A DNA stretch of 64,000 nucleotides from Marvania coccoides (Eukaryota > Chlorophyta > Trebouxiophyceae > Chlorellales > Chlorellaceae), in contig OY978103.1 in assembly GCA_963854735.1 (NCBI GenBank), positions 434,001 to 498,000 on the forward strand, given 5' to 3'. The notes beneath the pieces are model-generated. The model saw only the letters and a list, made by a program, of their open reading frames with translations, was not told where the DNA came from and did not search any database. Positions 40,110 to 63,557 of the stretch are shown one piece after another. The position numbers and the translations under genes are program-made. The number at the start of each line of letters is the position of its first letter. Position 1 is the first letter of the stretch.

Positions 40110-40693
40110 CAGCCAGTCGTAATTGATATTTTGAAGTAAAAAAAATTGGTTTCGGATGTCGCAAAATATCTGCCCGAGGGAGATGGAACGCGAAAACGGA
40201 TGTGCGACAAAATTGACTACTTTTGAGAACTAAAAATATGCAACTCCGAAACTGTTTGCTTGCGGTACGAGCACGCAGCCTGAAGATCAGGGTTTAAGGA
40301 AAAAATAAAGTTTTTACAGCTGTCTTCGGTAACTCGCATCATCGAGGTGCCCGAAAAGTGTCTCATGCGACATTCATGCGGCAAGGTGTTGGCCCTGGAA
40401 GCTCTAATCTGGAATTCATTCCCCAAATTTTTCTTCTCGATATTTTGTTATTTCTCACGTGATCCATTTTTTTCTTGGTTCCAAGCATGCGCAAGCATAT
40501 TAACCATAAAAATATATACCATAAATGTATATATATATCAAGATCCAGGTAAGACCGGCGCATTCTGGCCAAATGCGCGAACCTTTGTAAATCTCGATGG
40601 CAAGAACATCGCTTCCTCTCCAAAACCTTGTTCACCCAATTTAAACCTCTCTTAATTTTACACTACTTATCATGCAGAGACGCTGCGCGCATT
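40110..40693. other. Divergent upstream region of the selenoprotein gene
   Basis: About 580 bases, AT-rich. A possible 5' UTR intron runs from a gtaaga donor at 40549 (gatccag/gtaaga) to an acceptor ending at 40677 (catgcag/agacgc), 16 bases before the ATG. A tatatatatc stretch at 40531-40540 precedes it. Confidence 0.4.
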
Positions 40694-41047
40694 ATGGGTA
40701 ACGAAACTTCCAGAAATGCAGATGGCAGCCTCGCCGTCAATATCCCCACTGGCTCTGTGCTGGTAGAAGTGGCTTACTGCTCCGCATGACTACTGCACGC
40801 GACCATGAAATACCATGACTTCATCAGGGACGTGAAAAAGCGGTTCCCTGGTGCTCCCTTGGTGTTTGATGGCCGCCCCAAAAAAATCCGGGGCGGATTC
40901 TTCGAGATTTCTGTTGACGGCGTCACGGTGTTCCCAACCGATACAGAATCGGGGAACCTCGACACCGAAGAGAAGAAAGAGGGCGTGCTGACCGCCATTG
41001 CGCAGGCTCTGGACGCGAAGACCGCGCTGCAAGGGTCATTGAGTTGA
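40694..41047 (+). CDS. Rdx-family (SelW-like) selenoprotein with in-frame UGA for selenocysteine
   Basis: One exon of 118 codons with an internal TGA at 40787-40789 (codon 32). Read through, the product is 117 residues with VLVEVAYCSAU, where Cys29 and Sec32 form the CxxU redox motif that follows the first beta strand in SelW/Rdx proteins. Downstream are FIRDVKKRFPGAPLVF and GGFFEISVDGVTVFPT, matching the Rdx pattern GxFEVxVxGxxVF, and a final helix (EGVLTAIAQALDAK). Neither GT-AG nor frame gives a splice that removes the TGA. The N-terminus MGNETSRN fits an N-myristoylation signal. A SECIS-like structure lies 54 bases past the terminal stop, which is also TGA. Role: thioredoxin-fold redox protein, partner unknown. 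A conventional caller would start at Met38 (40805) and lose the active site. Confidence 0.9.
40787..40789 (+). other. Selenocysteine codon (UGA)
   Basis: TGA in the frame of the Rdx-like protein, at the fourth position of the CxxU motif where the family carries Sec or Cys. Coding continues for 85 codons with family-specific sequence on its 3' side. Confidence 0.9.
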
Positions 41048-41087
41048 CGAAGAAAAAATTAGTATGAGGCGAGTGCTGGCTGGCTGT

Positions 41088-41167
41088 GGGCCTCAGGCTT
41101 ATGACGGACGGCGCAATCAAAGGCTTTCACCTTAGCCTGGAGCCGCCCTGACTCGATATCTGAGCCC
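41088..41167 (+). promoter_or_regulatory. SECIS element, form 2 type
   Basis: Helix I is GGGC(c)TCAG at 41088-41096 with CTGAGCCC at 41160-41167. After an internal loop comes the core: ATGA at 41101-41104 opposite TGA at 41149-41151, giving the tandem G-A pairs of the kink-turn. Helix II pairs 41106-41112 (GGACGGC) with 41142-41148 (GCCGCCC), with one A-C mismatch. The unpaired AA at 41115-41116 lies 10 bases after the ATGA, the normal spacing. An apical mini-stem AGGCT/AGCCT (41121-41125 with 41134-41138) makes it form 2. All hallmark parts are present and correctly spaced in the 3' UTR of the selenoprotein. Confidence 0.85.
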
Positions 41168-41973
41168 TGGCATTGCCTGGCACTGCGCCTTGGTAGTCTT
41201 CCTACGAACCCCCCCCCAGTACAATTTTTAATTCTTATCATGACTTTTTATGTTTTAAGAATGTAACTCTGCCCATCAGATATCCGTCAGCAATGCAGAT
41301 AGCACCTCAGAGCGAGATCAGGTCCCAATAGCCCTTAAATAATTGGCCCAGCTGTGTGCAGCAGGACCAGATCCTAACTAAACAGGGCGCAGGCGCTGGC
41401 TAGAATGCGCCACGCTCTATTATTTTATTATTGCGTTATTATTGGCTCCTTCTGTCACCTCAAACTCTCTTGAACGCAAGTTTTGGGTTGAATAAATTCT
41501 AGCACCCACATAATCCTTCCACTTCTCAGGAGCGACAACAACACCCCACTAAAAGGACACCTTCAGATAAGAATAAGAAATTTATTAATGCACACGGAAT
41601 TCTTAATTTCTCGTTCTCTTAGTACAACCCTCACGTCGAGCCCGCCAAAATTTTCAAAATAATTTTTAAGGGTTTGTCTCAGGCCTGACAATAAACTAAA
41701 ATCGTGTCGACTTACGTGCGTGAAATTATTGTTTGCAGCTTGCTTACAAGGCTGTCCGCAAACTCATCCGCCCCACAGAGAACTAAACACCTAGGGCTAA
41801 CCTAGGTCCGATCCGCCTAGCAATCAAATCGGGTGAGCATACCAGAGCTTCCTCCAGCCCATATACTCTCTAATTACTACTGTTGGAACACCGTGCGCAG
41901 CCCGCGGAATCAATTCATGCCCATAAAAATACCTCACCCTACCTCCAGCAGCCCTTTTCCTGCAGTCAGTCTG
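41168..41973. other. Intergenic and upstream region of the permease gene
   Basis: About 800 bases. An acceptor-like tttgcag ends near 41739 and another (ttcctgcag) near 41965, just before the permease ATG, which suggests spliced 5' UTR exons. No other feature seen. Confidence 0.4.
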
Positions 41974-44710
41974 ATGGGGAAACTCTCGGAGGGCTTCGCC
42001 AAGCGCTCCACCCGCGACTGGCTGGTGGGCGACTACGACTGGGGCTACCTGTGCAAGCCCAAGTGGCCCTACTGCAGCGGTGGTAAGAAGCGCGACCCCC
42101 CCAAATTCTTTGGGCGCGACGACTGGCTGGGCATCGTCACCGCCGTGCTCATGGGCCTGCAGCACGCCCTCGCCATGTGCGGTGGTCTCATCACTGTGCC
42201 CTTCTTGGTCGGCTCCAATGCCTTCAAAGACCCCACGCTCTCGGTGGAGCAGGCCACCGACTACCAGCAGTACCTCATCTCCGCTGCGCTCATCGTGTGC
42301 GGCATCACCACCGCCATCCAGGTCACCGGCATCCCTCTGCCCTTTAACCGCCAGCTGGGCGCGGGAATCCTCTCCGTGATGGGCGTCTCCTTCAGCTCCT
42401 ATGCCGCGGTCGACTCCACCGTGAAGACCATCATGGCAAAGGGCGAGACGTTTGAGACCGCGATGGGCTACATTTTCGGCACCGCGGCGGTTTGCGCCAT
42501 CGTCCCCATTCTAATTAGTCTCCTGCCGCACAGAGTCATCAAGAAGGTCTTCCCTCCCATCGTGTGCGGTATCACCATCGTGCTGATCGGCGTCTCTCTG
42601 ACTGGCGTGGGCATCAGGTCGGTTTATTTGCTTTCCAGCCCTCCTCCTTTCGCTGTCTTTTCTCACCCCGTACCCCAAATAATAAAGAAAAAATGTCGAA
42701 TAAATACCTTGACTCACCTGTTTTTTTCTTTTCCTTTCGTTCTACAGGGCCTGGGGCGGCGGCGCCTTCTGTTCCCAGAACACCAAGGGCCTCTACAACA
42801 CGATCCCGGGTGGGTGCACTGTGGTCAACGCCACGTCAGGACAGCCTTATAACGTCACCTCCTGTTTCACCAACATCCCCGTGAACTGCGTTTCCGGCGA
42901 AGTGAAGCTGCCCTACGGCTCCCCCCAGTTTGTGGGCCTCGGGTTCTCTGTCTTCGCGATGATCATTGTCATCGAAATCTTTGGCAGCCCCTTTCTCCGC
43001 AACTGCGGCGTCGTCATCGCGCTGCTCTTCGGCTTCATGCTCGCCGCCGTGACGCGCTACAACGGACTGAAATTCGTTACTAGCGCCAAAATCGACGCCG
43101 CCCCCGTTATTACTTTCCTATGGGTCTACACATTCCCGCTCAAAGTATACGGCCCACTGGTACTGCCTTTACTGATTATTTTCGTGATTACGAGTCTTGA
43201 GACCGTGGGAGATACGTCTGCGACCGAGGAGGCGTCTTTCCTGAGCACCTCTGGTCCCAGCCATGAGAAACGAATCCGCGGGGCCCTGCTGAACGATGGT
43301 GTCGGCGGCATCTTCTCGTCCCTCGCTACCTCCCTTCCGCTCACCACCTTTGCCCAAAACAACGGTGTTATCAGGTATGGTATATTTACACAAAAAAAGG
43401 CATCTGTGAAACTGCTTTTCTGACATTGTCGCCCTTTTCCTCCCTCCCTTCTTTGCAGTCTCACCAGCGTGGCCAGTCGCCAAGCTGGCTGGGCGGCCGC
43501 CGGCTGGCTCTTCTTGCTGGGAGTTCTGGGCAAGGTCAGTTCCATTTTGCTCGGGTGATACTCAAGGAACAACTGCATGCATGCGGAATATTTTGGCCAA
43601 CCGCCGTCCCCGATTGAACCCACTGTGAACTTATCAGAGGGAATGTTAATTTCCGCAGGTTGGGGGAGTGATTACCACCATTCCTGATTGCGTGATCGGA
43701 GGTGAATTCTAAAATTCCCCTGTCACACTTTTTTTTTTAATTTTTGTGTATTTTGAAAGGGAAACTTTTTTTGTGTGGAATTAAAACCATGTACAGGCTT
43801 TACAGGTTTAAGTAGTAATGCGTGCATGAAACAATGTATGTGGGAATTAACAACAAAATGTTGATTTTTTTGTAGGCATGACCACCTTCCTCTTTGCCAA
43901 CGTCATTGCCAGTGGCATCAAAATTATGGCAAGTAGCTAATAGCTAATCCATGAGAAAATGAAACAGACACATTATTCCCCTTGCGATGTTTTTTCTTTT
44001 TTTTATTCTCTCAGGTTGGCGAGCACCTCACTCGCCGCAACCGCTTCATCATGGCGTGCGCGCTTGGCCTTGGCCTGGGAGTGACCCTGGTGCCTGAATG
44101 GGCCGACAACGCGCTGTGGCCTTGTAAGTTCCATGCATATTTTGCCAACGAAACCTGTTTCAATGGAATTTTTTATTTCATTTTGTCAGGCAACTGATTC
44201 AGCTTGCATCCTTAATGAGTTCTTAATGTTTACTAAGTACTTTTTGGCATTCTGCTATATGTGCAGGCAAAGACTGTTCCTCTGGGCTCAAGGGCCTTCG
44301 GGATGCTGTCATCAAGGTCCTGGACACCGGCTTCTGCCTGGGAGCCGTGCTGGCCATCATCCTGAACCTGATTCTCCCTGACGAAGAGCGCCAGGTGAGA
44401 GACTGATTTTAAAAACTGACTTTTTACAGCGACCTGTAGCTTTGCTCGCGCCAGCTGGAATTGAAATTTGAATATTGCTCTCTAAGGAGGAACGCGAATC
44501 AACCCCAAATTTATTACTCCACGTTTTTATTTTATGCAGCTTGTGCCTGAGCCGACCATGCTGAAGCGTCATTTGATGGATGAGCCCACCGTGAGGTACC
44601 GCAACACCGAGGCACCGGGCCTTGAAACCATGGCCCACGACGACCCTTCATTCAAGTCAGGAAAGACGGAGGAATCCGACAATGGAATGAAACCGGAGGC
44701 GGTTGTTTAA
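41974..44710 (+). CDS. Nucleobase-ascorbate transporter family permease (UapA/NAT type)
   Basis: Eight exons, 41974-42617, 42748-43374, 43459-43534, 43659-43701, 43876-43928, 44015-44123, 44267-44394 and 44540-44710, give about 616 residues. GRDDWLGIVTAVLMGLQHAL (QHAL/QHxx motif of TM1), TSLETVGDTSATEEAS and the NAT signature QNNGVISLTSVASRQAG (Q-N-x-G-x4-T-R/S) define the family. About 12-14 spans are expected. The long extracellular loop after TM5 with paired cysteines (CTVVNATSGQPYNVTSCFTN) and the N-terminal WLVGDYDWGYLCKPKWPY resemble the fungal UapA/AnUapC branch (uric acid/xanthine) more than plant NATs. Likely a proton-coupled purine importer at the plasma membrane. Intron 5 uses a GC donor (ATG/gcaagt); a nearby GT would break the frame. 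Confidence 0.93.
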
Positions 44711-47707: not shown

Positions 47708-50700
47708 GGGCGCGGCCAGGGGCCAGGCTTTAGCATTCTATCCTTGAACGTTCACGCAAACATCCGCCTCCCTCACATGCGGTCTTTGTGGGAGCGACTA
47801 GTACAGAATGTAACCATCATCTGCTTTCAGGAGACGGGCCTGCCCCCTGGCGATTCCCCGCCGTTGCTGCCAGGGTACCAACATTTCTCCGTCCCCAGCG
47901 AGTCCAACGCGCCCACGGGGGCAGGGGGAGGACTGCTGATGTACGTGGCCACCGAAATGGGCCCGGCGCACGTTTGGCGGGAGTCTAGCACGGCGCTCTG
48001 GGTGGAGATCAGCGCCCCGCCCTCCATGGACCGCCCCCTGCTAATCGCCAACGTGTACCTCCCGCCGGCTGGGGGCGCGCGAGGGTGGATTGGAGACTCT
48101 GGGCTAGCGGAGCTGGAGGACATCATGCCAGAGGCGCACGCGCGGGGCTGGGCGGTACCGATAGGCGATTTTAATGCCCACATCGGCCGGCTTCAGGCGG
48201 GCGCGCAGAGCAGGGAGGGCTCCCCGCCGGTGTACGACGGCTCTGTGGACTCAGAGGCGCTCAACCACCTCCACAACACCCACCCTTGCCCAGCGCCGCC
48301 GCGCGCAAGCGCTGACACAGCTGCCCCTGATCCAAGGGGGAAGAACGTCGTGCGGATGGCGACTGCGCAAGACATGGTTCTCAAGAATGGCTGCACCACA
48401 GGGGACCTGCACGGCGCAGCGACCAGCCATGGCGTGACAGGACTGGGGACAGCGGTGGTGGACCTGGCGTTGGTGCCGACAGACATGGGGCGCCTGGTGA
48501 AATCACTAGAGGTGGTTCCGGTGCCTAGGGCACTATCAGACCATAATGCGCTGCTCCTCACCTTCAACCCCTCCATACCGAGCGCCCCGCTGAGTGCATT
48601 AGACCTCCAACGCCGACAAGCAGGCCGGGCTGCCACCCACCCGCAAGATATCCCCGCCCCCGCTGCCCCAGTGCGCGAGATCACGGACGACGTGCTCCGA
48701 GCATTGAAGGCACCGACCTCCCTGGCTGCGGCTGCAGAGGAGCTGGTCGATTTTAGCAGTGCTGCAAACGGCGCCACCCAGCAGGTGGAGGTAGACGCCC
48801 TGGCAGCCAAGCTATGCGCCGCAGTGGATGCCACTCTTGCAAATGCTGGAGCAGAAGTGGTGGCGCAAGCGGCGGCGAATGGGGCTGCGCCTGGAGCCCA
48901 CAGCGGCGGCGGGGCGGAGGCGGCGGCAACGGTGCGGGCATTCCGAGATGCGCTCAAGCATGGGGACTCCCAGCTGGCCCAGAACTACAAGGACCAGCTG
49001 GAGTGCATGCGCGAGCAACGGAAGAAGCAGACGGCAGCCGATAAACTGGTGCAGCTCCTGCATGCGGCGGCGGCCCGCTCACCCTTATGGAAGTTATTCA
49101 AACGCTTGAGTCACCTTGACCCTGTGATTGCTGATGAAGTTTTTCTGCGCTATTACAAGAACCTGTTTGGCGCTGACCACCCTGCTGCGTTTGTGACTGT
49201 GCCTGACCAAATCCCCGTTGCCGATCCTTCCAACCCCTCCCCTGCAGAGAACCCCGCCATGGTCGCACCCTTCACGCCGGCTGAGCTCGAAGACACGGCT
49301 CTGAAAATGCGCACCAACAAGGCCTACGCAGGCGACCTCCGGCCGGAGGTGCTACGCGCCCTGATGCCAGCGCTGGCAGCACCGCTGGCGGCGCTGTTCA
49401 ACGCCTGTGTGCGCCTGGGTGGCCTACAGCGCGAGTGGGCCTGGGGGTACATCACCCCCATCCACAAGCCAGGCGGCGACGTGCACGAGCCGGGGGACTA
49501 CAGGCCCATCACGGTGGGCACCCTGCTGGCTCGGCTCTACGCCTCAGCGCTGAACACGCGCCTGGTAGGCTGGGCAGAGGCGGCGGGGGTGCGTGCGCAA
49601 GGGCAGGCGGGGTTTCGGCCGGGGCGGCGGTGCGCGGACCAGATATTCGTGCTGCGGACGATGTTGGAGCTGCAGCAGCGGGCAATGGAGAAAACGCCGT
49701 TGTTCGTCTGTTTTGTTGACTTTCGGAAGGCGTACGACTCGGTCCCGCGAGAGAAGCTCTGGGGGAAGCTGCAGGCGGCTGGCGTGGGGGGCTGGTTGAT
49801 GCGCGCCATCCAGACGCTGTATGCAGACATCCCGGTCTGCGTGAAAGGCGACGCTGGATTCACAGCCACTTTCCCGTGCCTGGTGGGCCTGCGCCAGGGC
49901 TGCCCCCTCAGCCCACACTTTTTGGATTGTACGTGGACGACCTGGAGCGCGCGGAGCTAGATGCGGCTGGGGTAGACCTGCCGCTACTGCGAGGGCGCTC
50001 GCTGCCGCCGCTGCTCTACGCCGACGACCTGGCCCTCCTCTCCACCACTCCAGCGGGCCTACAACGGCAGCTCGACACCCTCAACACCTACGCCATTGCA
50101 GCTGGGCTCGCTGTCAACCTTACTAAAACCGAAATCGTCGTTTTTGGAGTAGGACTCAGCAAGGTGGAGAGGGGCTGGGAGTGGAAATACGCCGACGGCA
50201 TCGTACCGCGAATGGCCGCCTTCACGTACCTAGGTTTCGAGTTCCACGCGCTGAAGCCGTTCGCCGCCGCAGGAGACCACCGCGCTGCCAAAGCGCTGCG
50301 GGCGATGTATGCAGTGCGCAGACGGGCGGCTGAGCTGGACATCGACACGCCGGCGCACATCACCATGCTGTTCAACGCCATGGTGCTGCCAGGACTGGAG
50401 TACGGCGCGGAGGTGTGGGGAGCAGCAGCAGCGACGGCCTGGGCGGCAGACCCGCTGAGCGGCAGCCATGCCGGGAGCTACCGCCTGCTCACGCGCTTCC
50501 TGCGCCCGCTCCTTGGAGTCCCAACGATGGGGATCAGGACGGCTGCGCTGCTGGTGGAGGCGGCGATGTGGCCGGTGGAAATCAGATACGCCGCAGCTGT
50601 ACTGCGTTTCTGGACTCGGCTCCGCGAGCTCCCAGAGGACCACCTGGCCCACCAGGCGTTTCTGGCCAGCGAGGAGATGGAGAAGGGCGAGCTGGCGACG

Positions 50701-51387
50701 CGGGCTGCCGCGGAGGTGACAGCAGCGGCGGCGGCGGCGGTTGGGTTGCCGGTGGCGGAGCCAAGGGCGGCGTGGCCACCGTGCTGGGCGGCAGAGGCGC
50801 GCGCAATGCTAAGGGAGTTCGGCGTGATGCGCGCCAATGGCTCCCTCCATGACGACGCGTCAGGACTGCTGCGCACCAATGCCGAGGGGAAATGGCTGGC
50901 AGCACTGACGGGGTCGGCAAGTTTGCAGCTTAGCACTTATCTCGACACCTGGTACCCTACACCGCTCTCCGCGGAGGACTACGTGCCCCACCGCCACCTG
51001 CAGAGTGCGGAAGGGACGGTATTGCAGGCACTATTGCCGAGAGCGGACAGAGCAGCGCTGTCGCGTTTCCGGCTAGGAGTGCAATGGATCCGAGTCCCAA
51101 GGGTGGGGGAGAGTGGAGTCTGGCACCCACCAGCCGTGTGCCCCCTGTGCGCGCAGCCAGGCCCGCACCACGAATCGCACATCTTGCGCACCTGCTCCGC
51201 GCTGCATCAAGAGCGGGCGCAGGCGGCCACAGCGTTGGCAGCGGCGCCAACGACGAGGAGCCTGCTGGAAATGGCGGAGGCTGACCTCACCCAGGTGGCA
51301 GCCCTGGTGCGGGCGCACCTGGAGGGCGTACAGGCGGCGAATAAAGAGAGCACAAGGAGCGAGAGAGAGTCAAGATTACGAAGATGA
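47708..51387 (+). pseudogene. LINE ORF2: endonuclease, reverse transcriptase, zinc knuckle (frameshifted)
   Basis: The frame opens immediately after the ORF1 stop with GFSILSLNVHANIR, the start of an apurinic-type endonuclease. The first ATG comes later, at 47777, past this conserved Asn motif. Further sites are CFQETGLPPGD, IGDFNAHIG and SDHNALLLTF. The reverse transcriptase has PIHKPGGDVHEPGDYRPITV, GQAGFRPGRRCADQIF, VDFRKAYDSV and LRQGCPLSP. At about 49907 the frame shifts by one base, then continues with FGLYVDDLE and the catalytic LLYADDLALL. The end holds a CPLCAQPGPHHESHILRTC knuckle. No RNase H domain is visible. A one-base loss is the simplest cause of the shift, so this copy is probably dead. 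Confidence 0.88.
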
Positions 51388-62339: not shown

Positions 62340-63557
62340 TCAACAGTCCGGCGCCATCTCGTTCAGCCCCGCTGCCACTGCCAGCTCCTCGAGCGCCTTG
62401 ACTGCAGCAAACCGTTCGTCAAACCGCATATCATACCAGTGGTTCACAGCTATCGCCACCTCCGCTTGCCCTTCTCTGCCTTCACCGTTCAAATTACTAG
62501 TCATATTAGCTCCGCCGTGGTGAACTTCATGCCACCAGCCAGCAGGCAGGTACAGCGTCTCTCCGGGGATTAGGGTAACCACGAGCGGCAGTGGTAACTC
62601 AGGGTCCTCGTAGAGCTCTAAAACCCCGTCACCACCATCATCGTCATCGGCAATATATGTTGGAAATCTCGATGAATCGGGAAACAAAGGACGGGGGGGC
62701 ACAGAGGACCAGAGAACTTGCGATGAGGACGAGTATTGGCTTCCATCCTCTACCCCGTCGCTTAGCTCCAGTTTCAGCCGTTTAGGAAAGTCAGCGGCAG
62801 ACATAACAATTTCTGGACCAGCAGCGGTGGTGGCAGTGGCGGTGGGTGTCTCTCCTTCGCCTTCTGCGGGTCTCCAGATGGCCAGAGGGTACCGCCGCAG
62901 CGCCATGCGGTACCCATCCGTCGGTGGGAGCAGCCGGAAGGTTTTTTGCCCCAAAACCATTGAATATATGTTCTGAAAAGGGTCTTTATGCCATGACGTT
63001 ATCGTCTGCCGCCCGCCTGCCCAAAAATTCACCGCTTCAGGGGGTCCCCCGAACGCAGCGTGCGCCCACTCAAAGTCGAGGTCGATATCGTCCCTCAGCT
63101 GCGGCAGCTCCGCCGTGAGGCTCGAGTTTTGAAACTGAAGGTAGGGCACCAGCGGTGGAAGAATTTCTTCTTCTTGCGACCCTGGAGCCCACTGCTGTGA
63201 GGCTCTGAGCAAGTCGAAGAACGCGCCCAAAGTGGCGCGCTGTTGGTGCGGCAGCGCAAAGCAGCTTCTGCCGTCTGGGAGGGTCGCGGGGCAGTCGGCC
63301 CGGCCATCGGGCGTGAGAGCAACGGTGACCGGGGAAGAAACGCCGGCTGCTGCGATGAGGTGAGCTTCTGACCACCGGCGGAGCGCTGGCCAGTGGGAGA
63401 TGGCGTCGGTGAAGACGACGGGTTTGTTGGGGGCCACGTAGTCTCGCAGGAATTCGAGAGGAGAGAGGCTGGCAACTCGCGGGACGGTGGCGCCAATGTC
63501 GAGCTCACGGAGCTCGTGGGTGAGGCCGCGCAAGACGCCAACAGTGGAGGATGCCAT
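62340..63557 (-). CDS. JMJD7: JMJD7-type JmjC oxygenase
   Basis: A single exon of 405 residues. The cupin core carries the Fe(II) ligands His190 and Asp192 (SWHKDPFQN) and His343 (LYLPAGWWHEVHHG). Lys205 in VLGQKTFRLL likely holds 2-oxoglutarate. The N-terminal LSPLEFLRDYVAPNKPVVFT and ISHWPALRRW, and VNFWAGGRQTITSWHKDPFQ, are typical of JMJD7, a lysyl (3S)-hydroxylase of DRG GTPases. The protein is about 90 residues longer than human JMJD7. The extra length lies mostly between residues 228 and 315, an insert of low complexity with a DDDDGGDG stretch between the two iron-binding strands. The first ATG in the frame is used. Confidence 0.92.
   Translation of the reverse strand: MASSTVGVLRGLTHELRELDIGATVPRVASLSPLEFLRDYVAPNKPVVFTDAISHWPALRRWSEAHLIAAAGVSSPVTVALTPDGRADCPATLPDGRSCFALPHQQRATLGAFFDLLRASQQWAPGSQEEEILPPLVPYLQFQNSSLTAELPQLRDDIDLDFEWAHAAFGGPPEAVNFWAGGRQTITSWHKDPFQNIYSMVLGQKTFRLLPPTDGYRMALRRYPLAIWRPAEGEGETPTATATTAAGPEIVMSAADFPKRLKLELSDGVEDGSQYSSSSQVLWSSVPPRPLFPDSSRFPTYIADDDDGGDGVLELYEDPELPLPLVVTLIPGETLYLPAGWWHEVHHGGANMTSNLNGEGREGQAEVAIAVNHWYDMRFDERFAAVKALEELAVAAGLNEMAPDC

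Follow-up and report, generated by a model that had tools for sequence, protein, structure and literature searches.

The substrates of selenoprotein W (SelW) are poorly known. Forms of SelW that contain selenocysteine (Sec) are widespread in algae, according to excerpts of two papers (PMC7539508; PMC2375036), and since many algae are known to have Sec-SelW, the selenoprotein reported here is in itself of an already known type and ordinary for an alga. Human MIEN1 is described, in an excerpt of PMC6738349, as anchored to membranes by geranylgeranylation at a C-terminal CaaX box. At the other end of proteins, MGXXXS/T is given as a motif for N-myristoylation and MGCXXS/T as one for myristoylation together with palmitoylation (excerpt of PMC3890537), and MGCXXS/T has been used for plasma-membrane location (excerpt of PMC10953335). 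Here, we describe a SelW-type gene in a 64,000-nucleotide stretch of contig OY978103.1 of the green alga Marvania coccoides (the whole of which is referred to as the window), whose protein, when an internal TGA is read through, combines a C-x-x-U redox motif with a putative N-terminal acylation signal.

Results

An open frame interrupted by a single TGA

The features of the frame were as follows.

40694..41047, + strand: predicted read-through coding sequence of the SelW/Rdx type, 117 residues plus the terminal TGA (translation; Pfam Rdx; SelW 2npb)
40787..40789, + strand: codon 32, a TGA predicted to encode the selenocysteine of C-S-A-U (TGA also in the C8 paralogue, CGGU; W in proteins P0003 and P0004)
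41045..41062, + strand: terminal TGA followed, five codons on, by an in-frame TAG (41060-41062), a possible back-up stop

Translation of 40694-41044 with TGA as Sec (U) gave a protein of 117 residues, MGNETS...YCSAULLHAT...SLS, which starts with MGNETSRNADGS and contains VLVEVAYCSAULLHATMKYHDF. The sole internal TGA in the frame is codon 32 (40787-40789), which takes the second redox position of the motif YCSAU (residues 28-32, C-x-x-U). The terminal stop at 41045-41047 is likewise TGA, and this codon therefore plays two roles within one gene, as predicted Sec codon and as terminal stop. Re-translation bore out the coordinates, the translation and the TGA position given in a preliminary description of this DNA, and also its expectation that a standard gene caller would yield a product of 80 residues, as the first in-frame ATG past codon 32 lies at 40805 (residue 38). 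The locus would thus be another algal SelW that standard annotation shortens to 80 residues without the active site.

The next gene downstream, on the same strand (41833-42852), belongs to the xanthine/uracil permease family. Further along the + strand, 47744-51387 holds two overlapping frames with RVT_1 matches, the first of which also has a weak endonuclease match, and looks like a LINE-type element. Elsewhere in the genome, rbcL on contig C15 has its best matches in Rubisco of the green type (1gk8, from Chlamydomonas), which points to a green alga and led us to discard the red alga Porphyridium as a source.

The read-through protein belongs to the Rdx family

Pfam Rdx (PF10262) matched the read-through protein with 25.7 bits (cut-off 22.6) over residues 24-98, so that homology to Rdx spans both flanks of codon 32. 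Among solved structures, mouse SelW (2npb) was the best relative, with E values of 5.2e-5 for the single sequence and 1.3e-14 for a three-member profile, followed by C17orf37/MIEN1 (0.011 and 2.6e-5, respectively). The family assignment made in the preliminary description was therefore upheld by Pfam and by sequence similarity to SelW, while the NCBIfam model TIGR02174 (SelT/SelW/SelH) gave 27.4 bits and stayed under its cut-off of 34.2. A whole-genome search with Pfam Rdx returned two places, on C2 and C8, and the window locus was absent from that list.

A structure model predicted from the single sequence was of low confidence (mean pLDDT 55.4) and placed a strand at residues 24-28. With this low-confidence model, the sole PDB match found by Foldseek at E <= 0.001 was mouse SelW (E 9.9e-4, TM 0.52/0.66), and ranks 1-14 were all SelW-type or related structural-genomics entries. 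The weak model is thus consistent with a protein that may be of SelW type by fold too.

Sister genes and relatives

Two further predicted selenoprotein genes were found in the genome.

L012:1275-1764 (C8): second SelW-type selenoprotein gene, CGGU, stop TAG, intron 1363-1513, SECIS-like core at 1811
L001:1332-2061 and about 2100-2195 (C2): SelT-like gene, C-T-S-U, with introns, structure assigned by eye; Rdx 47.5 bits, one internal TGA

The C8 protein (MGCFPSKSKAADVAPGAVHVQVVYCGGUHAFARKYHEL..., 112 residues) is 42% identical to the window protein, and its TGA stands at the position that matches codon 32 of the window gene. Counted from the first base of the Sec codon, its GT-AG intron (L012:1363-1513, 151 nt) begins seven bases downstream, and the codon is kept. 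With Rdx homology flanking codon 32 (residues 24-98) and a paralogue that has TGA at the matching site, the placement of the TGA is more than chance. The SelT-like gene on C2 ends in TGA, as judged by eye. An internal TGA was also sought in genes for GPX, and none of the five matches had one.

When the window protein alone was used to search protein collections, no relative was found at E <= 0.01. An alignment of two members returned one protein, and an alignment of three members returned five (P0003-P0007); all seven members of the resulting family alignment match Rdx at E <= 0.01. P0003 starts with MGCTPSKS and has YCGSW, and P0004 starts with MGCTSSKA and has YCGAW, with W in the place of Sec; the simplest explanation would be that TGA was read as Trp when these genes were called. 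P0005 and P0006 begin past the Sec site, and the N-terminus of P0007 could not be aligned. P0003-P0006 would then be cases of selenoproteins misread by gene callers, with W given for Sec or only the part after the Sec site retained. Among viral contigs and one genome per prokaryote species, a search in which the patterns were short conserved ones confirmed no relative.

A SECIS-like element follows the stop codon

Eukaryotic SECIS elements are built of helices, a quartet, unpaired A runs and a mini-stem, and their minimum spacing from a recoded UGA is about 50-110 nt. Downstream of the window gene, a stretch on which the preliminary description is silent can take on this anatomy.

41088..41167, + strand: type II SECIS-like element (purpose-written scanner; constrained fold; pairing partly by eye)
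41101-41105 and 41149-41152, + strand: quartet, ATGAC / TGAC
41106-41112 with 41142-41148, + strand: helix II, GGACGGC/GCCGCCC, with one A.C mismatch
41088-41096 with 41160-41167, + strand: lower helix

It also has an unpaired A run (AA) and a mini-stem, AGGCT/AGCCT; its core ATGA lies 53 nt past the end of the terminal TGA and 311 nt past the Sec TGA. The quartet, the A or G that precedes it and the long mini-stems of algal elements are covered in an excerpt of PMC2375036.

When the 300 nt that follow the stop were dinucleotide-shuffled, a score as high arose in 1 of 2000 shuffles with the strict scanner and in 7 of 2000 with the relaxed one, and 5 and 10, respectively, of 2538 other overlapping 300-nt segments reached it; as the scanner was built after the SECIS-like elements had been spotted by eye, these shuffle and segment figures lean toward the elements. 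Over the whole window the strict scanner gave 12 matches on the + and 10 on the - strand, among which 41088-41167 ranked first on its strand and second overall. The top score belonged to 62388-62434 on the - strand (27.3, against 24.9 for 41088-41167), a match that sits inside the same-strand frame of a cupin-domain protein (62340-63557) and is probably due to chance. Rfam reported no SECIS in the window at the gathering threshold, nor any near the gene at E values up to 10, and the folding energy was ordinary (MFE z -0.28; 71 of 200 shuffles folded as well).

SECIS-like elements were present at both sister genes. At the C8 gene, the core lies 46 nt past the stop, and none of 2000 shuffles scored as high with the relaxed pattern (overall energy z -1.26), the strict pattern having no match there; the window and C8 elements have ATGACGG(A/G)(C/T)GGCGCA in common. 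At the C2 gene, 6 of 2000 shuffles scored as high as the element at 2121-2171. A MAFFT alignment of the three elements was poor, and no claim of covariation was drawn from it.

Splicing or loss of function as the source of the TGA

An internal stop could also mean that the gene is dead or ordinary, the TGA being a mutated or mis-sequenced Cys codon or else removed by splicing. We listed the in-frame pairs of GT-AG or GC-AG sites at least 30 nt apart and counted the two types by hand. On paper, 75 such pairs would excise codon 32 and leave no stop, 32 of them GT-AG and 43 GC-AG. This corrects the earlier statement that no GT-AG splice removes the TGA, which was inexact. None of the 32 GT-AG pairs has its donor beyond 40769, so that each of these introns would delete Cys29 (40778-40780) and with it the whole redox motif. 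Seven of the 43 GC-AG pairs, with the donor at 40784, would spare Cys29. The acceptors of the TGA-removing pairs have no pyrimidine tract, as judged by eye.

Further evidence against a dead or ordinary gene comes from the paralogue on another contig with its TGA at the matching position, from the SECIS-like elements and their common sequence at both genes, from a frame that is open and homologous to Rdx on both sides of the TGA, and from the Sec machinery of the genome, given below. We consider loss of function or splicing very unlikely, and the internal TGA very probably codes for selenocysteine.

The genome has Sec machinery

The preliminary description named a lack of all Sec machinery as grounds to reject this reading of the TGA. 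A search of the genome showed that these grounds do not apply.

C10:1075181: tRNA-Sec, 74.1 bits, anticodon TCA
C1:737714: SepSecS, 409.9 bits
C4:1526630: SelD, 271.8 bits
C1:256927: eEFSec domain III, 93.6 bits
L029 (C9), - strand: SBP2-like protein, alanine-rich, at least 618 residues, with a C-terminal L7Ae region

The L7Ae region on C9 was nearest to SBP2 (E 2.5e-18), the runner-up being ribosomal L7Ae (4.7e-4). PSTK-like matches reached 80.2 bits and remained below the cut-off of 382.35; this search ran exon by exon, and partial matches are therefore expected.

The machinery also bears on the idea that TGA means Trp throughout this nuclear genome, with residue 32 then being Trp. The W found at this site in P0003 and P0004 would agree with it, although that W presumably stems from a gene caller's TGA=W code (the DNA was not inspected). 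Both the window gene and, by eye, the SelT-like gene terminate with TGA, and the genome has Sec factors and a Sec tRNA with the anticodon TCA, which makes a Trp code hardly credible here. The earlier proposal of Sec at the CxxU of an Rdx/SelW protein is instead supported by the Rdx homology on both sides, the machinery and the TGA of the paralogue. From the sequence, we predict with high confidence that in this green alga the gene encodes a SelW-type (Rdx) thiol/selenol oxidoreductase. In its synthesis, SBP2 would bind the SECIS, and eEFSec would bring Sec-tRNA to UGA 32, which precedes the SECIS core by 311 nt. The terminal UGA, separated from the core by just 53 nt, would be read as a stop, with the TAG at 41060 as a possible back-up.

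The start codon and a putative acylation signal

The 5' part of the gene has the following features.

40694..40711, + strand: MGNETS start, which fits the N-myristoylation motif MGxxxS/T and is a putative signal (relatives MGCFPS, MGCTPS, MGCTSS)
40549..40677, + strand: candidate intron, CAG/GTAAGA ... CATGCAG/AG (slashes mark the splice sites), in the 5' UTR, or within coding sequence if translation starts upstream
40487..40548, + strand: candidate upstream exon with an in-frame ATG at 40487 (rival start), GC 0.26

An MGxxxS start was present in all four relatives that cover the N-terminus (window, C8, P0003, P0004) and took the form MGCxxS in three of them, a count that includes four of the seven family members and leaves out P0005, P0006 and P0007. 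When the window, C8 and P0003 proteins were aligned, M1, G2 and S6 were the only invariant positions in the first 19 residues of the window protein. The genome encodes an N-myristoyltransferase (PF01233, 258.4 bits, C1:2198656). An N-terminal acyl start would be unusual for the Rdx/SelW family.

Myristoylation would be lost if the selenoprotein were real but started at the ATG at 40487, with an exon spliced over 40549-40677; the protein would then have 143 residues, and the MG would be internal. The strong-looking CAG/GTAAGA donor and the CATGCAG acceptor would allow this, and the open frame joins in phase. The upstream exon, however, looks UTR-like, as its GC content is 26% (0.55 in the coding sequence) and its third-position GC 0.30 (0.55-0.69 in the coding sequence), and C8, P0003 and P0004 begin with MG at the matching place, database starts being the choices of gene callers. 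We hold the upstream start to be rather unlikely, and, given the low GC content of the upstream exon, 40694 looks preferable to 40487. The C8 gene likewise has CAG/AG shortly upstream of its ATG, and a 5' UTR intron common to the two genes is possible.

The suggestion of myristoylation made in the preliminary description thus gains from the MGxxxS start of the four of seven members that cover the N-terminus, and as an argument from a motif it hinges on the true start codon. From the motif, N-terminal lipidation of the window protein may be proposed. Starting from 40694, N-myristoyltransferase might acylate Gly2 of MGNETS and so hold the redox domain on a membrane, and the C8 paralogue (MGCFPS) might bear both myristate and an S-acyl group. 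If acylation is real, SelW-type selenol chemistry gains a membrane address in these algae, and the search for substrates narrows to thiols near the membrane. Since the cysteine for S-acylation is present in the C8 paralogue and absent from the window protein, the two would lend themselves to a simple paired test.

Comparison with known systems

Among the matches listed in a literature search, in which subscription journals are thinly covered, we found no paper on a myristoylated or otherwise acylated SelW. The acylation-type start sets the present group apart, and we propose it as a variant rather than as an established novelty. Like the window protein, mouse SelW (SELENOW, 2npb) has C-x-x-U after the first strand of an Rdx domain; the window protein differs in its MGxxxS start and about 22 extra N-terminal residues, the mouse protein aligning from its residue 3-4. 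The SelW of Ostreococcus lucimarinus is also green-algal but has two Sec (UxxU), as described in excerpts of PMC7539508 and PMC2375036, against one here. The acylation motif of C8, P0003 and P0004 is that of plant CBL calcium sensors, which carry MGCxxS/T according to excerpts of PMC3890537 and PMC10953335 and are unrelated proteins that resemble them in the anchoring signal only.

MIEN1 (C17orf37, Rdx12, 2ljk) shares the Rdx domain with the window protein and, if the anchor proposed here is real, also a lipid anchor. In contrast to the window protein, MIEN1 has C-x-x-C, and the putative signal of the window protein is N-terminal. A CaaX box was looked for at the C-termini and was absent from the window protein, which ends in QGSLS; the C8 protein ends in AAATA. 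We lean, with some reserve, toward a clade of green-algal SelW that N-terminal acylation would keep at membranes. The anchor would be myristate in the window protein (MGNETS) and myristate with S-acylation (MGCxxS) in the C8 protein and in two or more environmental relatives, and the paralogues would differ in how firmly they bind. Such an anchor would be convergent with, and separate from, the C-terminal prenyl anchor of MIEN1.
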